Virus record (IMG/VR): IMGVR_UViG_3300042503_000290
Location: 1 to 39,158 of that record
Length of the DNA: 39,158 nt
Direction: 5' to 3' (one strand)
Origin: a virus
The translations under genes were made by a program, and so were the position numbers. Under the pieces are notes generated by a model. That model was not told the origin of the DNA. It did not search any database and saw only the letters and a list, made by a program, of their open reading frames with translations. Numbering within the stretch: the first letter of the stretch is position 1; each line of letters begins with the position of its first letter. Shown in pieces: positions 2,787 to 39,158 of the stretch.

Positions 2787-3069
2787 AATAAACCCTCAGT
2801 CTAGGGGGTATCCAATAATCAACGCTCTCGCCCTGCGTCAGGAGAGTCCCTTTCACATGTCGGGGCACGGGTGGCCGTACTCCCAGGGGGGTCTGTGTCT
2901 GCTAGAAACCCCAACAAGCACAAGGCGAACGAATGCGTGTAAAGCACACAGAACAATAGGTGGAGGGCGCATCTGCTGGCTGGTATCCAATACTGGCTGG
3001 TTGGTGGGCTATCCGAATCAAACAAACAAACTCCCCACGCTTGGGGAGTTCCTAACAAAAGGAAATACA
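2787..3069 (+). ncRNA. Non-coding leader region with several hairpins, unclassified
   Basis: This 283-nt stretch holds no convincing gene. It can fold into a CUCU/AGAG-CCUG/CAGG hairpin near 2825-2846, a GGGG-ACGG/CCGU-CUCC hairpin near 2862-2890, and a long-range CTGTGT/ACACAG pairing (about 2893 with 2946). An 11-bp direct repeat GGTATCCAATA occurs at 2807-2817 and 2982-2992. It ends in the first CTCCCCA hairpin. An open frame from ATG 2857 runs through it into the next gene, but its composition looks non-coding. It could be a structured RNA or an origin; I cannot assign it to a known class. Confidence 0.35.
3029..3050 (+). repeat. CTCCCCA/TGGGGAG hairpin repeat, copy 1
   Basis: Nine-bp stem (AACTCCCCA/TGGGGAGTT) with loop CGCT. 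It lies 19 nt upstream of the TTG start at 3070. It has no following T-run, so it is unlikely to be a standard terminator. Four more copies lie on the plus arm at 3548, 4341, 5358 and 8614. Confidence 0.8.
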
Positions 3070-3546
3070 TTGGCTACTAACAAGGCAAGCGGACTCACCG
3101 CATGGAATACATCACGCAAGGCAGACTTGCTCAACAAGAAAGGTAACGAGCACTTTTGGGAAGAGTGGTGCTTGCGTCATGGCGACATGGTGAAGCGTGG
3201 CGACTCGCCAGCGAAGTATCACAAGTTCTACGCAAGTGACACGAAGCGCATCACCGATTACAAACTCAAGTCTTTTGAGAACACGCTCGGCGCAATCACT
3301 CGTGCTGTTCGCAAGTACGGCTCGTACGAGGCTGCGAAGCAAGCGTTCCTCAAGGACACTCGTTACGAGTATGTGACTATCGGAGCGTTCATTACTTGGG
3401 CTCCTGCTGGTCAGCGTGCGAAGAGCGATAGCAAGCCTGTGCCTGCAACGGCTATCACGATTACTGCATCAGAGGCTCGCAAGCGTCTCGCTAAGTATTC
3501 GCCAGCCGTTCGTGATGAAATCATCAAGGCGCTTGGTCTCAAGTAA
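3070..3546 (+). CDS. Hypothetical protein, 158 aa (TTG start)
   Basis: The start is set at TTG 3070 because AAAAGGAAA lies just upstream and the preceding frame runs through a hairpin repeat. The mature sequence begins MATNKASGLTAWNTSR. It is helical, with basic N- and C-termini (ASEARKRLAKYSP, then DEIIKALGLK). No family recognised. It is followed directly by hairpin copy 2 and hammerhead ribozyme 1, so its mRNA 3' end may be made by ribozyme cleavage. Confidence 0.65.
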   Translation: MATNKASGLTAWNTSRKADLLNKKGNEHFWEEWCLRHGDMVKRGDSPAKYHKFYASDTKRITDYKLKSFENTLGAITRAVRKYGSYEAAKQAFLKDTRYEYVTIGAFITWAPAGQRAKSDSKPVPATAITITASEARKRLAKYSPAVRDEIIKALGLK

Positions 3547-3547
3547 T

Positions 3548-3565
3548 CTCCCCATGCTTGGGGAG
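3548..3565 (+). repeat. CTCCCCA/TGGGGAG hairpin repeat, copy 2
   Basis: Stem CTCCCCA/TGGGGAG, loop TGCT, starting one base after the stop codon of the 158-aa gene and ending 10 nt before the hammerhead at 3576. It would lie at the 3' end of the RNA released upstream of the ribozyme, where it could protect against 3' exonucleases. Confidence 0.8.
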
Positions 3566-3575
3566 TTGTCCTGAC

Positions 3576-3628
3576 ATGACGAAACGCCGTGAGGCGTCCA
3601 CGAGTAAGTGCTCGTGCTGATGAGTCAT
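3576..3628 (+). ncRNA. Hammerhead ribozyme, type II (copy 1)
   Basis: All hammerhead core elements are present in type II order. Stem II 5' strand ATGAC (3576-3580) is followed by GAAA (3581-3584). Stem III is CGCC/GGCG with a GTGA tetraloop (3585-3596). The cleavage triplet G-U-C ends at 3598. Stem I is CACGAG/CTCGTG with loop TAAGTG (3599-3616). CTGATGA follows (3617-3623), then stem II 3' strand GTCAT (3624-3628). Predicted self-cleavage after C3598 leaves a 5'-OH RNA starting 51 nt before the GTG at 3650. Helices covary with copy 2 while the core is invariant. Confidence 0.93.
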
Positions 3629-3649
3629 CAGTTAGTGGAAGGAACCACT

Positions 3650-3832
3650 GTGGCTATTAAAACTGATACCCAAACTTGGGAAGATATGAAAGCGTTGCTT
3701 GATGTGACTGTTCGTGAGTTGCAGAAGTGGCGTGACTATGAGGAGGAAGTTGGTTACGACTCTCCGAATGTTGACCGCATGACTGATGCGATTGATGCAA
3801 ACCTGGCTCTTATCGTTAGTGAGGTGAAGTAA
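3650..3832 (+). CDS. Hypothetical protein, 60 aa (GTG start)
   Basis: Begins MAIKTDTQTWEDMKALLDVT from GTG 3650, with GGAAGGAAC as ribosome-binding site. The protein is acidic and predicted helical (ELQKWRDYEEEVGY), with no known domain. It is the first gene after hammerhead 1, so after cleavage it would head its own RNA. Two bases separate it from the next gene, which suggests coupling. Confidence 0.6.
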   Translation: MAIKTDTQTWEDMKALLDVTVRELQKWRDYEEEVGYDSPNVDRMTDAIDANLALIVSEVK

Positions 3833-3834
3833 TC

Positions 3835-4056
3835 ATGGAAATCAACGGCGAAAAAGTAATCGGTTACGACCGTGTTGCAGACCGTGGCATTGTTGTGTCC
3901 ACACAATCTGTCAATCATGCAATGGGTGACTGCACGCAAGTGTTTATGACCTTTGACAACAAGGCTGATGCTGACATTTATCAGGCAGTTGTGCATGCTG
4001 TGTGGAATAAGCACATCAAGTCTTTGCGTGAGGGTTACATCACAATTGTTAAATGA
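3835..4056 (+). CDS. Hypothetical protein, 73 aa; stop codon lies inside hammerhead 2
   Basis: A 73-residue protein (MEINGEKVIGYDRVADRG), probably alpha/beta, with no recognised motif. GAGGTG upstream serves as ribosome-binding site. Its TGA stop (4054-4056) forms the first bases of stem II of the second hammerhead, so terminating ribosomes would cover the ribozyme. That gives a possible link between translation and RNA cleavage. Confidence 0.65.
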   Translation: MEINGEKVIGYDRVADRGIVVSTQSVNHAMGDCTQVFMTFDNKADADIYQAVVHAVWNKHIKSLREGYITIVK

Positions 4057-4104
4057 CGAAACGCCTTCGGGCGTCTACGGATAAATGTCCGTACTGACGA
4101 GTCA
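4054..4104 (+). ncRNA. Hammerhead ribozyme, type II (copy 2)
   Basis: Same architecture as copy 1. Stem II is TGAC (4054-4057) with GTCA (4101-4104), followed by GAAA (4058-4061). Stem III is CGCC/GGCG with a TTCG tetraloop (4062-4073), and UC ends at 4075 (cleavage site). Stem I is TACGGA/TCCGTA with loop TAAATG (4076-4093), then CTGACGA (4094-4100). Stem I base pairs differ from copy 1 yet remain paired, the stem III loop changed from GNRA to UUCG type, and the stem I loop is conserved (TAARTG). This is strong covariation evidence for a working ribozyme. Confidence 0.93.
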
Positions 4105-4124
4105 GAAAACAAAAGGAAATAATC

Positions 4125-4301
4125 ATGACTACATCTGAAATGCTTGAGCAAATTGAAATTGAATTGTTTGGTTTCAACAAGAAGCCTTCACGACATGTGG
4201 AGAACATCTGCCTTGAGCAAGAGTTGCTTGCTAACCAAGCGGAGTACGAGCGTTCTTTGCTCAACAATCGCAACGGCATCAAGGCTGACCGTATTGCCTA
4301 G
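4125..4301 (+). CDS. Hypothetical protein, 58 aa
   Basis: Begins MTTSEMLEQIEIELFGF and ends GIKADRIA. AAAAGGAAAT is 6-7 nt upstream, a good ribosome-binding site. The middle is a likely helical segment (CLEQELLANQAEYERSLLNN). No family recognised. It directly follows hammerhead 2 by 20 nt. Confidence 0.6.
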   Translation: MTTSEMLEQIEIELFGFNKKPSRHVENICLEQELLANQAEYERSLLNNRNGIKADRIA

Positions 4302-4320: not shown

Positions 4321-4379
4321 GGGTACAAGTGCATCAGCATCTCCCCATGCTTGGGGAGTTGTTGGTGCCCTTGCTACTC
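4321..4379 (+). ncRNA. Extended RNA stem-loop containing hairpin repeat copy 3
   Basis: The hairpin repeat at 4341-4358 is the tip of a much longer stem. GGGTA pairs with TACTC, CAAG with CTTG, GCATCAGCA with TGTTGGTGC (9 bp with two G-U pairs) and CTCCCCA with TGGGGAG. The helices are separated only by single mismatches or a bulged C. About 25 base pairs form in 59 nt. It ends 34 nt before the ATG at 4414, so it is in that gene's leader. A second small hairpin (ACTCAA/TTGAGT) overlaps its 3' edge. Confidence 0.7.
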
Positions 4380-5359: not shown

Positions 5360-5379
5360 CTCCCCATGCTTGGGGAGTT
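5358..5379 (+). repeat. CTCCCCA/TGGGGAG hairpin repeat, copy 4
   Basis: Nine-bp stem AACTCCCCA/TGGGGAGTT with loop TGCT, overlapping the stop codon of the 73-aa gene and lying 33 nt before the amidoligase start. It marks the boundary between the small-gene cassette and the amidoligase operon. Confidence 0.8.
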
Positions 5380-5412: not shown

Positions 5413-6567
5413 ATGACAAACATCAATGAAAACCCAGTCAACGACGAGGACGCAGTACCTGATACTCAGGACTGTTCGTGGTGTGACGAGACATACCCCA
5501 CAGATGAACTCAACATTCATGAGTTCTATCAGGGCTATTGGAACCGTCGCAACGGCAACCTCACAACGATTCATCTTTGTGATGACTGTGACGAACACCG
5601 AGAGACATGCAATGACTGCGACTCGATGTATCACTCATACTCAGACGAAGCAATCGTTGTTAATCACAACACAATTTGTCCAGAGTGTTCACAGAACTAT
5701 TCCTACTGTGACAGTCATGACGAGTATTACAACGGCGATGTCTGTGACGAATGCAGCGAGGAGCAAAACGGTTTGATTCACGACTACAGTTTCCGACCTG
5801 AACCACAGTTCTTTATCGTTCGCAAGGACGGCAGTACCACCAGCACATCATTCGGTTTCGGTCATCAGACTGTGACTGGCTTTGAGTTAGAGATGGAAGC
5901 GACAGAGTGTGAGCGTTACGAAGGTGCAGAACTTGCATCATCCATTTACGACAAGTGGTGCTACCTCAAGCATGACGGCTCACTTAATGACGGCTTTGAG
6001 ATGGTCTCACATCCGTTGTCTCGTGAGTTTGTTGCTGAGCACTTCCCATGGCAACGACTCAGTGAGTTGTCTAAGCTGGGTATGCGTTCCGCTAACACTC
6101 GTACATGTGGTTTGCATATTCACATCAACAAGGATTTCTTTCAGAAGAATCCAACGACTATGTACCGCTTCATGTCAATGTTCTACCGCAACGCAGAACA
6201 ATGGAAGAAGATTGCTGGTCGTTCTGAGTCCTCATACGCATCATGGTCTGACTATGAGTTAGAGCGCATGCTTGACTACACCAAGGGCATGGCTGTTGGT
6301 GCTCATGTGCGCAACAACGACCGCTATGTGGCACTGAATTTGCAGAACCGCAACACGATTGAGTTGCGTTTCTTTAAGGGTACATTGCGACCACAAACAT
6401 TCATTGCTCGTATCGAGGCTGCTCACGCTGTCGCTGAGTACGCCTACGCCACACGCAATGCCGTATCCATCAAGTCCGCCCACGACTGGGACAGATTCCG
6501 TGAGTGGACTATCCAACAAAAAACATACACAAACTTCAATACATATGCAGAAAGCAAGGGGGTCTAA
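5413..6567 (+). CDS. Amidoligase-family protein with N-terminal zinc-knuckle region
   Basis: A 384-residue protein. Residues about 20-117 hold many CxxC pairs (C21/C24, C56/C59, C66/C69, C89/C92, C111/C114), a likely multi-zinc module. Residues about 150-350 match the glutamine-synthetase-like COOH-NH2 ligase fold (amidoligase_2 type): GFELE (156-160), KHDGS (186-190), EMVSHPL (196-202), CGLHIHIN (232-239) and NTIELRFF (314-321). Such enzymes use ATP to make amide bonds on peptides or small acids. AAAGGAG precedes the start. The next gene is a class II glutaminase that could supply ammonia or trim amides. The substrate is unknown; a host peptide or cell-wall precursor is possible. Confidence 0.85.
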   Translation: MTNINENPVNDEDAVPDTQDCSWCDETYPTDELNIHEFYQGYWNRRNGNLTTIHLCDDCDEHRETCNDCDSMYHSYSDEAIVVNHNTICPECSQNYSYCDSHDEYYNGDVCDECSEEQNGLIHDYSFRPEPQFFIVRKDGSTTSTSFGFGHQTVTGFELEMEATECERYEGAELASSIYDKWCYLKHDGSLNDGFEMVSHPLSREFVAEHFPWQRLSELSKLGMRSANTRTCGLHIHINKDFFQKNPTTMYRFMSMFYRNAEQWKKIAGRSESSYASWSDYELERMLDYTKGMAVGAHVRNNDRYVALNLQNRNTIELRFFKGTLRPQTFIARIEAAHAVAEYAYATRNAVSIKSAHDWDRFREWTIQQKTYTNFNTYAESKGV

Positions 6568-6570
6568 GCA

Positions 6571-7518
6571 ATGTGTTTGCTGACTTTTATTCCTGAATAC
6601 ACCACACCATCAATTGATGACTTGACCAATGGCGCCTCCAACAACCCTGACGGCTTCGGCTTTGCAGTGCATGCCGGCACCAGCATTATCCATAACAGCG
6701 GTCTCGACTTTGACAAAATCCTTGACGAGTTCTTGACTGTGCGTGCTAAGCACAGTGGGCCTGCATTGTTCCACTCTAGGATTACTACCCATGGTGGTAC
6801 AACTGTAGACAACTGTCATCCATTCCAAGTTGGTCGTGACACTCAAACTGTTATGGCACACAACGGCATGCTCCCTATCAAGGAGCGTGATGGCAAGTCT
6901 GACACCCGTATCTATGCAGAGGAAATGATTCCACAGATGGGTGGCTCTCCAATCCTCAACAGCAAGAAGATGCGCAAGAAGATGAGCAAGTTTGCTGCTG
7001 GTTCTAAACTTGTGTTCCTGTCTGCTAATCCTGATGTGCAGAATGATTACACAATCATCAACGAGAACCTAGGTGCTTACGACGCTGATGGTGTGTGGTG
7101 GTCTAACACGAGTTACAAGTATGCTCGCTACACCTACAGCGGTTCAGGTATGTACACCAGCGGTTGGACTAAGAAGTCTGAGTCACCTATCTATGTGCCT
7201 AAGGAATACGCTGACGCTGACCGTGGTATTGTTGATTGTTCATATCGTGAAGCCAACGGCGAATGGGTGTGGGCAGAGATGTGGACATGTTCACATTGCG
7301 ACTTCCAGCACTACTTTGACGAGGACAACATTGACACCGCCGACCTGTGTCCGCAGTGTGACGCATGCTGGTTCTGTGAGTCAGAGCGTCTCATGTGCTC
7401 ATGCTATGAGCGTCAGTCAGACCTTGTTGAGGAATACCGTGCAGAGATGGACGACAGAGAGTACGCCGAATCTCTCGCTATCGGCAACTACGACCAAGGA
7501 GTGATTGACTTTTTCTAA
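6571..7518 (+). CDS. Class II glutamine amidotransferase (Ntn hydrolase) with C-terminal zinc ribbon
   Basis: A 315-residue protein starting MCLLTF. Cys2 would become the N-terminal nucleophile after Met removal. Other GATase II hallmarks are NPDGFGFA (25-32), HSRITTHG (68-75), CHPF (82-85) and MAHNGML (95-101). Residues about 238-282 add Cys pairs (CSHC, CPQC, CWFC, CSC) that look zinc-binding, echoing the module at the N-terminus of the amidoligase 3 nt upstream. Amidoligase plus GAT-II pairing is a known gene-neighbourhood theme. The start is preceded by AAGGGGG inside the amidoligase end. Confidence 0.87.
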   Translation: MCLLTFIPEYTTPSIDDLTNGASNNPDGFGFAVHAGTSIIHNSGLDFDKILDEFLTVRAKHSGPALFHSRITTHGGTTVDNCHPFQVGRDTQTVMAHNGMLPIKERDGKSDTRIYAEEMIPQMGGSPILNSKKMRKKMSKFAAGSKLVFLSANPDVQNDYTIINENLGAYDADGVWWSNTSYKYARYTYSGSGMYTSGWTKKSESPIYVPKEYADADRGIVDCSYREANGEWVWAEMWTCSHCDFQHYFDEDNIDTADLCPQCDACWFCESERLMCSCYERQSDLVEEYRAEMDDREYAESLAIGNYDQGVIDFF

Positions 7519-8334: not shown

Positions 8335-8553
8335 ATGACCCCACAAATCTATACAGAATTATCCTTTGACGAACTTCGTGCCGTCATGAAGTCACTCAGC
8401 ATCGGCTGTGACCAACTATCAAAGAAGCTTGATAGACTTACATCTACCAAATACCACACCGACGTTCAGGAGGAACTCATGATTCTTATGTCAGCCAACA
8501 ACAAGTTTGGACACTCTATGTCTAGGGCATTAAGTGAGATGCCGGATGCTTAG
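8335..8553 (+). CDS. Hypothetical protein, 72 aa
   Basis: Begins MTPQIYTELSFDELRAVMKS; mostly helical with a Lys-rich centre. AAGGT upstream is the ribosome-binding site. Its end overlaps the start of the Rpf-like gene by 8 nt, so the two are probably coupled. No family recognised. Confidence 0.6.
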   Translation: MTPQIYTELSFDELRAVMKSLSIGCDQLSKKLDRLTSTKYHTDVQEELMILMSANNKFGHSMSRALSEMPDA

Positions 8554-9100
8554 AATACTTCTATCATCCCTCGCTCTTATCAGCGTACACCCATCCATAG
8601 TCAGCCAACCAATGAACTCCCCAAGCGTGGGGAGTTCCACAACAACCGAGGTATCAAATGCCGAAACACCTACTGACATACTTGCCATTGAATCAACGAC
8701 AAGCACTACCACTTCCACAGTACCACCGCAGACCGAGCCAAATGCGTGGCCGATGGAGTGGCTCGCTACGCTACGAACTCCAAAGGATTCATATTGGGAT
8801 GCTGTTGCTCAGTGTGAGACTGGAAGCAATTGGCAAGACCTTGGCATGTGGGGTGGCGGACTTGGCATCTACGTACCCACTTGGAGGGCGTTCGGTGGCA
8901 GACAGTTCGCAGGACGGCCTCAAGGCGCTACACGAGAAGAGCAAATTCATGTAGCCAACCGCATCGCCCTACATGGATACCTCAGACAAGACGGGGTGTT
9001 CCAACAGCCAGTCGGGTTCAACGGCTGGGGCTGTATCTATAACAACAAACCACTACAACCTAAAGTGCCGACACCTTGGTCGGCTTGGAGAAACAAATGA
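8546..9100 (+). CDS. Secreted Rpf-like transglycosylase (lysin)
   Basis: 184 residues. Residues 1-20 are a signal-peptide-like hydrophobic segment (MLRILLSSLALISVHPSIVS). A Ser/Thr-rich linker spans about 28-62. Residues 83-165 match the resuscitation-promoting-factor/transglycosylase-like domain: YWDAVAQCETGSNW (E91 the expected catalytic acid), WGGGLGIYVPTW, GATREEQIHVANRI, and a second Cys (C163) able to pair with C90. Rpf domains are typical of actinobacteria and their phages and cleave peptidoglycan glycan strands. The linker-coding DNA contains hairpin repeat copy 5. Its early-arm position suggests lysis or reactivation of a dormant host wall, not a virion role. Confidence 0.87.
   Translation: MLRILLSSLALISVHPSIVSQPMNSPSVGSSTTTEVSNAETPTDILAIESTTSTTTSTVPPQTEPNAWPMEWLATLRTPKDSYWDAVAQCETGSNWQDLGMWGGGLGIYVPTWRAFGGRQFAGRPQGATREEQIHVANRIALHGYLRQDGVFQQPVGFNGWGCIYNNKPLQPKVPTPWSAWRNK
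8614..8637 (+). repeat. CTCCCCA/TGGGGAG hairpin repeat, copy 5 (inside a CDS)
   Basis: Ten-bp stem GAACTCCCCA/TGGGGAGTTC with loop AGCG, located within the Rpf-like gene where it encodes part of the low-complexity linker (MNSPSVGSS). The loop is inverted relative to copy 1 (CGCT to AGCG). A copy tolerated inside a linker suggests the element inserts or is selected as RNA. Confidence 0.75.
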
Positions 9101-13536: not shown

Positions 13537-13994
13537 CAAAGAACTCAGACTGGGATATCCCAGCATCCAAATTTAATTTTCAAAAGGATTTAGCATATGG
13601 CCAACAGGGAGAAAAACTCGTACAATCGTTTCTTGACTCGCTCAGCGACGGAGCGTTTGAAGTCAAAACAGACCGCTACAGGAATGGCAGGATGGCAGTC
13701 GAGGTTGAACAAAACCCTTTCCGCAAAACAGACGAAGAAGGAAACCAAGTTTGGAACCCCTCCGGAATAAATGTAACTAAAGCAAAATGGTGGGTATATG
13801 TATACACACTAGATGGTACGGGCGGTGCATTCATTGTCGTATCGGTAAAGCGCCTCAAGAAGTACATCCGAAAGAACAAAAAGAATCTAAAGATGATGGA
13901 CTTTGCCCGACGCTCAAACAACCCAGCACGAGGATGGATTATAGAACCCGACCAAGTGATGAGTATGATGTACAGTGAACTATATGATGAATGA
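13533..13994 (+). CDS. Candidate PD-(D/E)XK-fold nuclease, 153 aa
   Basis: The pattern YGQQGEKLVQSFLDSL, then FEVKTDRYRNGRMAVEVEQN, resembles the E...ExK core of restriction-endonuclease-like enzymes (E27 in GQQGE, EVKTD near 43-47). Residues about 75-112 (KAKWWVYVYT, FIVVSVKRLKKYI) fit the trailing beta strands. It is next to RusA, so a recombination or host-DNA-degrading nuclease is plausible. The call is by motif, without a family name. Confidence 0.6.
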   Translation: MTKNSDWDIPASKFNFQKDLAYGQQGEKLVQSFLDSLSDGAFEVKTDRYRNGRMAVEVEQNPFRKTDEEGNQVWNPSGINVTKAKWWVYVYTLDGTGGAFIVVSVKRLKKYIRKNKKNLKMMDFARRSNNPARGWIIEPDQVMSMMYSELYDE

Positions 13995-14817
13995 GTTCAG
14001 ACCCATCAGGTCAACCGCTGACCGAAGTCCCGACACGGACATTGAAGCGCTCATGCAGACCAAACCCTTTGAGGAACCACCAACCTCCAACGAGGAACTA
14101 CTGGTGCTACGGGAAGCCGTAGCATCAATAGTAGACGATTTAGAACCACGAGACCTGTGGATAATCAACGCATGTATAAGCGAGGGCAAATCTTTACAGA
14201 AGATTGCCGACGAACTCAACATGACCAAAACACACGTATGGCGCCTGCGTAATCAGGCGTTTGAAAAGCTAAAGGTAGCAATGTCAACAAACACAACAAT
14301 CCGCAAATCAATCCGTCTAGCAGACACATGGGAACAATCAGCCATGCAATGGGTGATGTACATCGCAGGGCTAGGAAGCACAGAAGATTCCGAACCGCTG
14401 GACATTGAACGCATGCGCTCATACATCACAGCGCTAGAGGCTGTGTACCGAACCGACCGGGAGGTCATGGTCAGGCAGGAAACGTTTACCGACATCGCAG
14501 TGTCAGCCATTAACGAGATGCGCTTTGCAGAGACATGGGACACAGGAGAAATGGTGGCCACCCTGTGCCGTAAACAGCACGACTATGGTCATGGCAACAT
14601 CAACCGCTTCGGAATGTACGGAGTGGTTGTCCGCCTCAGTGACAAGATTGAACGACTAGACAACTTAAAAAACAAAGACAGAAAAGCATTCCACGAGTCA
14701 ACCAATGATACACTTATGGATATCGTTGGATACTGCGTGATTGCTCTGATGATACTAGACGATACTTTCAATCTTGAATTAGGAGACTACGATGGAAACA
14801 CCGAACCCCACGAATAA
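13975..14817 (+). CDS. Sigma region 4-like HTH fused to DUF1599/Nmad-type domain
   Basis: 280 residues. Residues 45-102 (LREAVASIVDDLEPRDLWII, KSLQKIADELNMTKTHVWRL, RNQAFEKLK) look like sigma-70 region 4. Residues about 190-268 (KQHDYGHGN, GVVVRLSDKIERLDNLKNKD, DTLMDIVGYCVIAL) match the all-alpha DUF1599 (nucleotide-modification-associated domain 1) type, with the acidic ED/D residues of that fold. The start may be GTG 13975 or ATG 13984/13987; none has a strong ribosome-binding site. The fusion suggests a DNA-binding regulator with a nucleotide-sensing or nucleotide-processing module. Confidence 0.75.
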   Translation: MNYMMNEFRPIRSTADRSPDTDIEALMQTKPFEEPPTSNEELLVLREAVASIVDDLEPRDLWIINACISEGKSLQKIADELNMTKTHVWRLRNQAFEKLKVAMSTNTTIRKSIRLADTWEQSAMQWVMYIAGLGSTEDSEPLDIERMRSYITALEAVYRTDREVMVRQETFTDIAVSAINEMRFAETWDTGEMVATLCRKQHDYGHGNINRFGMYGVVVRLSDKIERLDNLKNKDRKAFHESTNDTLMDIVGYCVIALMILDDTFNLELGDYDGNTEPHE

Positions 14818-19100: not shown

Positions 19101-22100
19101 AGGTCATACTGCGCCAGGCGATGAATAGCATCCACAATCTCTTTGTCAGCCTGGGCCTTAACATGGATAGGGAGAAGCATACCCTCGTTGTATCTGTCCA
19201 CAACACGACGTGCCTCTTCAATGGTTCGTGCATCGGGAGGAGCTTTATCGAGAACTGCTTGTGCCTTCTTTGGAAGATTAGGAATAGTGTTAATCTGACT
19301 TAACTGTCCTTCCTTCTCCTTTAGCGTTCCAGCAAGAACAACCTTCTTTTCAAGAAGACGCTGTGAAGCCTTGGGGTTGGTTTCAATACTTGCAATCTCT
19401 GCCTTGATAGCTGCAATATCTTTTTCAAGTTGAATAACATCACCAGAGACAGCGCCAGTCAAACGGCTAGCCTGGGTCTCATATCCAGCTGCCGTCTCCA
19501 AAGCAGAACGAGCCTTACCGACACGCTCAACAATAGCCTCATTAACACCGAGCTTCGCAGTAATGCGACGCTCGAGTCTGTCTGCATGGTCCTGCAACAA
19601 CGACGCATACCAGGTACCGGTGCGTTGAAGATTGCCCGGGTCGTTAAAGAACTCAGCAATATTAACGTCAGGTGCAAGCATCGTCTTAAAGCGCATACGT
19701 GCAGTACGCAAAGCTTTCATCTTGGTTACAAGCTCAGCCTCACCGCCGACAATTGTGCTACGTGTACCGGCGATTTCTGAACGACCAATCAAACCCTCAA
19801 ACCAACGCTTAACAACAATAGAGTCGGCGTCGTCAGCAAACGGACTCATTGAACCACGGTTTCCTTTAGCAGCTGAAGGAACATTTTCCTTCAAAGCAGC
19901 CTTCATGTTTTCTTTGCTTGCTGTTTTATTCGGATAGGCTGTTTCAAACCAAGGCTTTACATACTCATCATAAAAAGCGTTCTCTGCTTTTGTTCTTTCA
20001 CTAACCTGCATGATGGGTTTCTTTGACTTGTTGCGGACAATGTTTCCAGCCTCATCAAGAACAGGACCAGGAGACTTCTTAGACTTTCCAGCAAGTGCAG
20101 ACTTCATACGGCGCTTTAATGTATAAGGGTCACCAGCCCAGTTAACCTTGTGGCCAATAACTTCCGTCAAAACATCACGCTGTGCCTGGGGCAAAGTATC
20201 AAGAGCGTTCTTAAACACTTCGGAAATAGATACGCCTTCCTTGCCTGCAATAGCACGAGCAACCTTCTTGTCAAGCTCCTCAAGAATCATATGTGCATGC
20301 GTGATATTGGAAAGCTTGGATTCAATGCCGGGGATAAACTTATTTCCAACAGAACGTGTAACTTCAGCAAACATTCTTTGAGTAGGAACAAAACCAAAAG
20401 AAGAAGTCAACTCAGCCAATGCATTAAACCGTGAGTGAACCTCAGAAGCCATAGTGTAGTTAATCAAGGCGTTGCTCAGCGCATCACGCTGTGCAGGCAG
20501 ACCAACCCAGTTTGCAGGACGAACAGTTGTACCACCACCGCTTATGCTGCGAACAGCATCAAGCGTCTTTGTGTACTGGTCACCGAACATCTCAGTAATA
20601 TCAGGCATGCGCTTCGGCTGCCCCTTCGCATCATAAACAACATTGCCATAGATGTCTGTTTCAATATCGCCTTGGCGAACAAACACACGCTTCTGATTAG
20701 CCTTGGTTGTGGCTTCTTCCTTAATCGCTGCACGACGAGCCTTTGCTTCAATGGCAATCTGCTCATTGGCTGCTTTCTCTGATTTTGCTGTAGCACGAAT
20801 CTTCTCTACACGTGCCAATGGAATAATCTCGTCATCAGGGAGGTCAAACCCAAGAGACTTCTGAATTGTTTCTACTTCCTTTGCACGAGTAGCACGCATC
20901 CTTGTAAGACGACCACTAAGAGACTTGTACTCTTCAAACATTTCAAGAAGTTCTCGACCCGTATAAGTCTTTTCGTTAAAGCCCGTCTTGCCGAAAGCAA
21001 AGAAAGGACCGTTCATCATCTCTTCAAGCTTAGACTTGTGAGACTTAGCTGCTGTCACAAGTTCACCATAAGTCATTGCATCCTTAGATGCTTCACGAGC
21101 AAGCTGCACATCAGCAACTGTTTCTCCACCAAGACTAAAACGCTCACCAGTAACAAAGTCAGAGTTGCCACGAGGATTCATGGGCACAGACATGTTGACA
21201 CCCATCAGGTCCTCGTAGAAGTCAAAACCTGTTTGCTGTGGAACTATCTCACCAAGCCAAGGATGGTCACGCAACAAAGGCTGAATAGCATCATAGGTAA
21301 CAGGCATATCAGCAAGCCCTGGATTTTCAGCAATAGTCTTTTCAAGCTTAGGGATGTATACGTCAATACCTTCAATAGCATTAACATAGTTTGTCGCACG
21401 GTCATAAGCAGGGGTTACTTCAGACTCGAAAATCTTGCCAAGAGTTTGCTTGCCCTTGCTTGTTTCGCTCCGAACTGTCTGAGCGTTGAACGCAACAGCC
21501 TCGTCTGCAAGACGGAGCTGTTCAATAACTTGAGCACGTAAACCCTGGAGAGTTTCAGGAATCTGGTCAGCATACAAACGATTGTCTGAAATCAAAGAAA
21601 ATAATGCAAGTTCACGAACACGGTTGATGCTCATCTCTCCACCAAACAACCTTGGGAGAGATTCATAGAAATCAGAAACCTTCATCTTAGATACAGCGGT
21701 CTTCTTAAGACCTGAGTGCATTGTCACCTGGCTAAAGATACTTCCATCTTCTTTAATGGCTTTGTTAATAAACGTCTGCAACTCGCCTGAAAGATTAAAT
21801 TGCTTCTGAATAATTTCACGAACAGTGTCGCTGCCGATTTGGCCATCACGAGCAATAATACCAATAGCGTGAGCTACCTCAATTGGTATGTCGCCAACAT
21901 CGGTACCCTTAGCCATCGCATCAAGAGTAGACTCAAGAATGTTGCCAAACTCCGTAACCATCTTAATACGGTCATGCGCATCCTGAAGGCGTGTACGCAA
22001 CAAGCCAACACGGTTCTCCATGGTCTGATGATGCTGTGCAAGCTCCTTACCAACCATGTCACGTTCAAGAGGACCAATCTCCAAACGCAAAGCAAGAATG

Positions 22101-38944: not shown

Positions 38945-39158
38945 TTACGAGCGTTAAAGGAACCCAAAACAAACTTTTCTTTCTTTTCGGGTTCAATTTG
39001 GTTAGCAAACCAATCAAAAGAGAACTTGGGTGGGGCCAAGTCGGGCGTATACTCAGGAAGCCACACATGCTTTAGCATTTGATTGGCGATAGCAATCGCC
39101 ATTACAAGGTCGTCATGCGGTGAACCGTGCATTTTCCCATTCTCGTCACGAACGAATG
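38941..39158 (-). CDS. terL: Terminase large subunit (C-terminal part; joins the left end)
   Basis: The last residues of TerL, including the nuclease motif PHDDLVMAIAIANQML with D468/D469, and the tail FVLGSFNARK. Bases 39032-39158 duplicate 1-127. The reading frame is continuous with the gene at 1-1484 when the ends are joined at the repeat. Confidence 0.93.
   Translation of the reverse strand, partial: FVRDENGKMHGSPHDDLVMAIAIANQMLKHVWLPEYTPDLAPPKFSFDWFANQIEPEKKEKFVLGSFNARK
39032..39158. repeat. Terminal direct repeat, right copy
   Basis: Identical to 1-127. See the left copy for interpretation as circular overlap. Confidence 0.95.

Follow-up and report, generated by a model that had tools for sequence, protein, structure and literature searches.

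The role of hammerhead ribozymes in phages and bacteria, according to a 2017 review (PMC6155905), has been an open question ever since these RNAs were discovered, and the locus studied here poses it in concrete form: what could a self-cleaving RNA do between two small phage genes, and what does it mean when the tail that follows the ribozyme is complementary to its own catalytic core? The window, by which we mean the whole stretch of 39,158 bases that was analysed, is a viral record with an exact 127-base direct terminal repeat (1-127 and 39032-39158), from which we take it that the record is probably a complete genome. The plus-strand half carries many small genes of unassigned function followed by genes for an amidoligase, an exonuclease, a DnaB-like helicase, a primase and a sigma-like protein, and the minus-strand half carries the virion genes. 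Because genes for a DnaB-like helicase, a primase and an exonuclease lie downstream on the plus strand, the placing of the ribozymes in an 'early operon' by the original prediction is plausible. The features of the locus are as follows.

3070..3546, plus strand: gene upstream of copy 1, 158 aa, TTG start, without a family match
3548..3565, plus strand: hairpin CTCCCCATGCTTGGGGAG, after the upstream stop codon and before copy 1; it occurs five times in the window
3576..3628, plus strand: type II hammerhead ribozyme, copy 1 (sequence, structural scan, covariance model, shuffles)
3576-3580, plus strand: 5' strand of stem II, AUGAC
3581-3584, plus strand: GAAA
3585-3596, plus strand: stem III, CGCC-GUGA-GGCG
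3596-3598, plus strand: cleavage triplet G3596-U3597-C3598
3598..3599, plus strand: expected cleavage site C3598/C3599, from the hammerhead NUH rule
3599-3616, plus strand: stem I, CACGAGU-AAGU-GCUCGUG
3617-3623, plus strand: core CUGAUGA
3624-3628, plus strand: 3' strand of stem II, GUCAU
3633..3650, plus strand: predicted hairpin UAGUGG-AAGGAA-CCACUG, whose loop contains the ribosome-binding site AAGGA; adjoins the GTG start
3650..3832, plus strand: gene downstream of copy 1, 60 aa, GTG start
3835..4056, plus strand: gene separating copies 1 and 2, 73 aa; the TGA that ends it (4054-4056) falls within stem II of copy 2
4054..4104, plus strand: type II hammerhead ribozyme, copy 2 (structural scan, covariance model, relatives)
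4125..4301, plus strand: gene downstream of copy 2, 58 aa

In both copies the CUGANGA core, the GAAA and the NUH triplet at the junction of stems III and I (GUC each time) are exact. Of the three helices, stems I and III end in loops and stem II is left open; they measure 4-5 bp (stem II), 4 bp (stem III) and 6-7 bp (stem I) and hold no mismatch. Paired changes distinguish stem I of copy 1 from that of copy 2 (CACGAG/CUCGUG vs UACGGA/UCCGUA). The core residues, GUC triplet and helices that the original prediction had described for copy 1 were all found where it had placed them, and its reading of the element as a type II hammerhead with a predicted cleavage site, lying between two small genes, is supported. 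Its numbering of the element as copy 1 implied another, and the structural scan of the window returned exactly one more, at 4054-4104, where cleavage is predicted between C4075 and U4076; a ribosome site and then the ATG at 4125 follow. The GTG start proposed at 3650 agrees with homologues, which use ATG at the same position.

Our own covariance model (R1), built from 38 viral sequences with the window and its relatives left out, scored copy 1 at 55.8 bits (E 8.5e-15) and copy 2 at 56.7 bits (E 4.9e-15), the next-best match in the window being a non-hammerhead at 10.8 bits. An element as good appeared in 0 of 4004 dinucleotide shuffles of the window, with a single loose match in all. The search with Rfam type II models that had been proposed as a check gave a divided answer: RF02276 (Hammerhead_II) was the best-matching family, and both scores, 22.7 bits for copy 1 and 30.7 bits for copy 2, lie under its gathering cut-off of 37 bits, so that by the Rfam rule neither copy is a member and a routine Rfam scan lists neither. 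Indeed, no hammerhead was listed when the whole window was scanned at the gathering threshold or 3.6 kb at E 10, and RF02276 surfaced solely when short stretches were scanned. The cut-off is a curation rule rather than a structural feature. The sub-threshold RF02276 scores are what speaks for a chance resemblance to a hammerhead, a reading to which we give next to no credence, as it is refuted by the shuffles, by the E values near 1e-14 that the independent model gives for both copies, and by the conservation of the ribozymes among relatives.

DNA patterns fixing only the core and stem II matched hundreds of viral loci, and they leave the other two stems free to be counted. Stems I and III were also present in 266 of 288 distinct viral matches, against 34 of 66,600 shuffled interiors; the same patterns matched 50 bacterial or archaeal stretches, and 23 of 48 matches in bacterial or archaeal genomes had both stems. 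This 288-sequence comparison is the fair test, since the sequences of our alignment A1 were selected for pairing and its compensatory-pair counts are thus not independent evidence.

Nine IMG/VR contigs that share the upstream gene were compared and show how the locus changes among relatives. Copy 2 is 100% identical in five of them and copy 1 is 96-98% identical in six, the changes in copy 1 falling in loop I, in the outermost pair of stem II and, once, in the triplet, where GUC has become GUA, which remains compatible with NUH. The genes between and beside the two ribozymes are 73-97% identical, replaced or missing. Compared with L123-L129, the interval 3576-4301 has the appearance of a cassette exchange bounded by the ribozymes, with genes swapped and ribozymes nearly unchanged. 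In L125 the counterpart of copy 1 retains stems I and III, has U-U at the first stem II pair and may be dead. Two contigs whose upstream gene is 72% identical in DNA (L130 and L131) carry a related element at the copy 1 site (25.9 bits) with stem I rewritten and one extra A before GAAA. No isolate phage with DNA like that of L283, L155, L186 or L141 was found; L267 is Xanthomonas phage Xp15, a cultured phage whose sequence fits the type II pattern.

The same placement recurs far beyond these relatives, as most of about 320 viral copies begin at the stop codon of one gene and finish just before the next ribosome site. Among 285 clustered copies whose flanks were long enough, 259 are preceded by a sense gene of at least 40 codons that ends between -45 and +3 of GAAA (antisense, 107), most often at -6/-7, that is, as UAGGAC or UAAGGAC. 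For 241, a start codon that has a ribosome site follows the core within 60 nt (median 27 nt). All copies lie on one strand in 76 of 78 multi-copy loci, with a median spacing of 555 nt and up to 11 copies in a single locus; L158, L155, L164 and L149 each carry 7 to 11 type II hammerheads in one phage locus, at one gene boundary after another. This context fits a polycistronic mRNA that would be cut between genes. The original prediction regarded such punctuation of a phage gene cluster as the unusual part, and here it was anticipated: passages of Perreault et al. (2011, PMC3088659) already describe clustered type II hammerheads flanking phage genes, put forward the cutting of long phage transcripts into operon- or gene-length mRNAs, and report that some bacterial arrangements cleave in vitro and in E. 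coli, so that operon punctuation as such is not new.

Two further hairpins accompany the ribozymes. The intergenic hairpin CTCCCCANGCNTGGGGAG occurs five times in the window (3031-3048, 3548-3565, 4341-4358, 5360-5377 and 8617-8634) with no T run after it, and close relatives also carry copies; it lies at gene-block boundaries, as the ribozymes do, and may be a terminator or an mRNA 3' stabiliser. The hairpin at 3633-3650 is not conserved among the relatives compared. In phage L283 the ribosome-binding site likewise lies in a small hairpin after each ribozyme (GACCUGAGGAGGUC-like).

What the original prediction had missed is the complementarity, read from the bases, between the tail of copy 1 and its core, which is the unusual feature of the locus. 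The tail runs on as GUCAUCAG, and CUGAUG-AGU-CAUCAG forms a 6-bp hairpin that takes up the catalytic core together with the 3' strand of stem II and therefore cannot coexist with the active fold. Copy 2 offers a weaker pairing of 4 bp that may be a coincidence.

3617..3631, plus strand: anti-core hairpin of copy 1, CUGAUG-AGU-CAUCAG, excludes stem II (covariation, energies)
4094..4105, plus strand: 4-bp anti-core pairing of copy 2, CUGA-CGAG-UCAG (weak)

An anti-core hairpin follows about 18% of viral type II hammerheads, most being without one. A Watson-Crick helix of at least 6 bp starting from core C3 was found in 41 of 331 clusters; the mean was 1.7 after the tails had been shuffled and 22.9 after they had been swapped between ribozymes. 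The only free base of the core is N7, and it allows a test conditional on UCAG at offset 2-7. The base before UCAG is A for U7 in 42 of 43 cases and G for C7 in 29 of 32, which makes 71 matches between N7 and the tail base among 75 (95%; Fisher 2e-18). Metagenomic contigs are not independent lineages, a dependence that is reduced, not removed, by taking cluster representatives (46/49 matches, with 28/29 for U7 and 18/20 for C7; Fisher 4e-12) or one count per locus (U7-A 32, U7-U 1, C7-G 21, C7-A 1, C7-C 1). UCAG tails follow 75 of 423 ribozymes (17.7%) vs 29 of 1249 other CTGAYGA sites on the same contigs (2.3%), and at those 29 sites the N7-tail match drops to 12 (about 40%), while 10 of 11 further hammerhead-like sites missed by the scan match. 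Across IMG/VR the fixed geometry GGAC...CUGAYGAGUCC-N-UCAG, a set that overlaps the discovery set, gave U7-A 44, U7-G 1, C7-G 9 and no other combination (C7-A 0) among distinct sequences.

Phage L283 carries the covariation within one genome. Each of its seven paralogous copies has U-A or C-G at the N7/tail pair, and in six of the seven the tail base is also paired in stem II (U-A-U or C-G-C), these six reading AUGAC...U7...GUCAUCAG or ACGAC...C7...GUCGUCAG. Between these two forms a single tail base changes together with two partners, which belong to mutually exclusive helices; copy 1 of the window has the first form. Column-wise mutual information between N7 and the tail positions over all copies showed hardly any signal, if any, since the hairpin is present in only about 18% of them and at varying offsets. 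As a shared tertiary contact of the anti-core class, a loop I-tail pseudoknot was considered and is not supported: pairings of at least 4 pairs occur in 4 of 66 sequences, the mean for shuffled ones being 5.5.

Nearest-neighbour energies, which leave out tertiary contacts and salt, favour the anti-core fold over stem II closure in 77 of 90 cases, and for copy 1 the predicted values are -21.5 vs -18.7 kcal/mol. In modelled nascent chains of copy 1 starting at 3540, stem II has a probability of about 0.7 when the chain ends at 3628-3629; at end 3631 it has 0.08 and the anti-core helix 0.89. For the downstream product on its own, the model gives the anti-core helix a mean probability of only 0.54. 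The uncut RNA also folds into the anti-core form (probability about 0.9, chains from 3540), and the computations thus do not place refolding after rather than before cleavage.

We favour a model, with a probability of roughly 0.55, whereby both copies cleave the mRNA in cis at gene boundaries and the tail of copy 1 then captures the core. According to this model, copies 1 and 2 would act as cis-cleaving type II hammerheads on the polycistronic phage mRNA, and each cut would leave an upstream RNA with stem III at its 3' terminus and a downstream RNA whose 5'-OH terminus carries stem I; as stem II is the open helix, each product would retain one hairpin at its new end. That only type II gives one hairpin per product is a matter of topology; a purpose behind it, like cleavage in the cell and the timing and purpose of the refolding, is something we infer. 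In copy 1, and likewise in roughly a sixth of viral type II hammerheads, the tail would pair with the freed core (CUGAYG with CRUCAG), its CAG binding CUG as a toehold and taking over the strand that had held stem II. This pairing would displace the upstream RNA from the short stem II, block religation and so seal the cut, and the downstream mRNA would be left with two adjacent 5' hairpins as a cap.

The same hairpin could act earlier. If it competes with stem II in the intact transcript, it would be an off-switch that limits or gates cleavage, leaving only some transcripts, or only those in a particular state, to be cut. In most viral copies the stop codon touches the 5' strand of stem II or runs into it, so that a ribosome terminating on the upstream gene could set the state. 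The N7-tail covariation serves this reading equally, and both the loss of stem II in nascent chains once 3631 has been made and the clustering of stop codons at -6/-7 from GAAA are in line with it. Against it, the upstream stop of copy 1 lies 37 nt off, without overlap, the stop position shows no link to the hairpin (medians -9 with and -7 without it, p 0.16), and no ligand site is evident. We regard the off-switch as the chief alternative, though a less likely one, and prefer capture of the core after the cut because the cores are intact and stem II is the sole tie between the products. The broader statement that many phage type II hammerheads, copy 1 included, are bistable, whether by self-sealing product ejection or by translational gating before cleavage, seems to us rather probable.

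Two readings dispense with a function of the RNA switch altogether, and we hold both to be improbable. The inverted repeat might be a product of events at the DNA level, either template-switch copying or a protein-binding palindrome, without any role in RNA. Template switching can make the arms of a repeat match without selection, and the repeat of copy 1 is a near-perfect palindrome; but such repeats directly follow stem II in many phage contigs and at a far higher rate than at CTGAYGA sites elsewhere, N7 and tail match much more often than at those sites, and G-U pairs occur too. Alternatively, the ribozymes might mainly be short conserved joints for the exchange of gene cassettes, their self-cleavage being incidental, as the replaced genes and nearly identical ribozymes of the relatives would suggest. 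Across phages, however, stem sequences vary freely while fold and core stay, and a joint working by sequence homology would not need a conserved fold; the single orientation of the copies in nearly all multi-copy loci also speaks against such joints, which we consider just as doubtful as the DNA-level origin.

Hammerheads of viroids and satellite RNAs are known to have an alternative fold in which the core of the mature strand is hidden. In those RNAs the switch is used for rolling-circle replication, whereas copy 1 has a short local hairpin in a DNA-phage mRNA, formed with a tail just 3' of stem II. The window copies resemble the type II hammerheads in the relevant passages of Perreault et al. 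2011 (RF02276, PMC3088659) in their core, three helices, open stem II and NUH triplet, and also in lying among phage genes, with several copies flanking single genes and a proposed role in processing long transcripts. They differ from RF02276 in scoring below its gathering cut-off and in having stems shorter than the consensus. They also differ from the pseudoknotted type II examples in those passages: those have at least 4 pairs between loop I and the tail, the sequence of copy 2 shows no such complementarity at all, and in copy 1 UAA-UUA is followed by a mismatch, falls short of 4 pairs and is not convincing. The pairing of the copy 1 tail with the catalytic core is not mentioned in the searched passages of that paper. 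It was not found in the open-access literature searched either, which is weak evidence of novelty, and the anti-core hairpin is apparently a recurrent and undescribed feature. The theta ribozymes of gut phages (PMC10879173) are likewise small and self-cleaving, and are widely distributed among phages yet seldom seen in bacterial genomes, but have an HDV-like fold and often lie at tRNA 3' ends, not between protein genes.

The anti-core hairpin is a specific, mutable feature that would be expected to influence the extent of cleavage, its reversibility or mRNA stability, and it may make the cut permanent or turn cutting off. As N7 is free to vary, changing it should not harm catalysis. If true, the model would provide a natural design for a self-sealing ribozyme and would in part explain how phages could split a long transcript without a dedicated nuclease.

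Several observations elsewhere in the window and among its relatives are worth recording. At 5413-7515 an amidoligase gene (PF12224) adjoins a gene for a class-II glutamine amidotransferase-like protein (PF13230), a pair that looks unusual for a phage of such size. A transglycosylase-like domain (PF06737) is encoded at 8534-9097; this domain is typical of Actinobacteria, suggesting an actinobacterial host. One protein (13975-14814) combines a part resembling sigma-70 region 4, below the Pfam cut-off, with a DUF1599 nucleotide-modification domain. Finally, L139 (MW202803.1), a relative by its portal protein, has an annotated RNA ligase at 20387-21487, which is of interest because hammerhead cutting yields 5'-OH and cyclic-phosphate ends.
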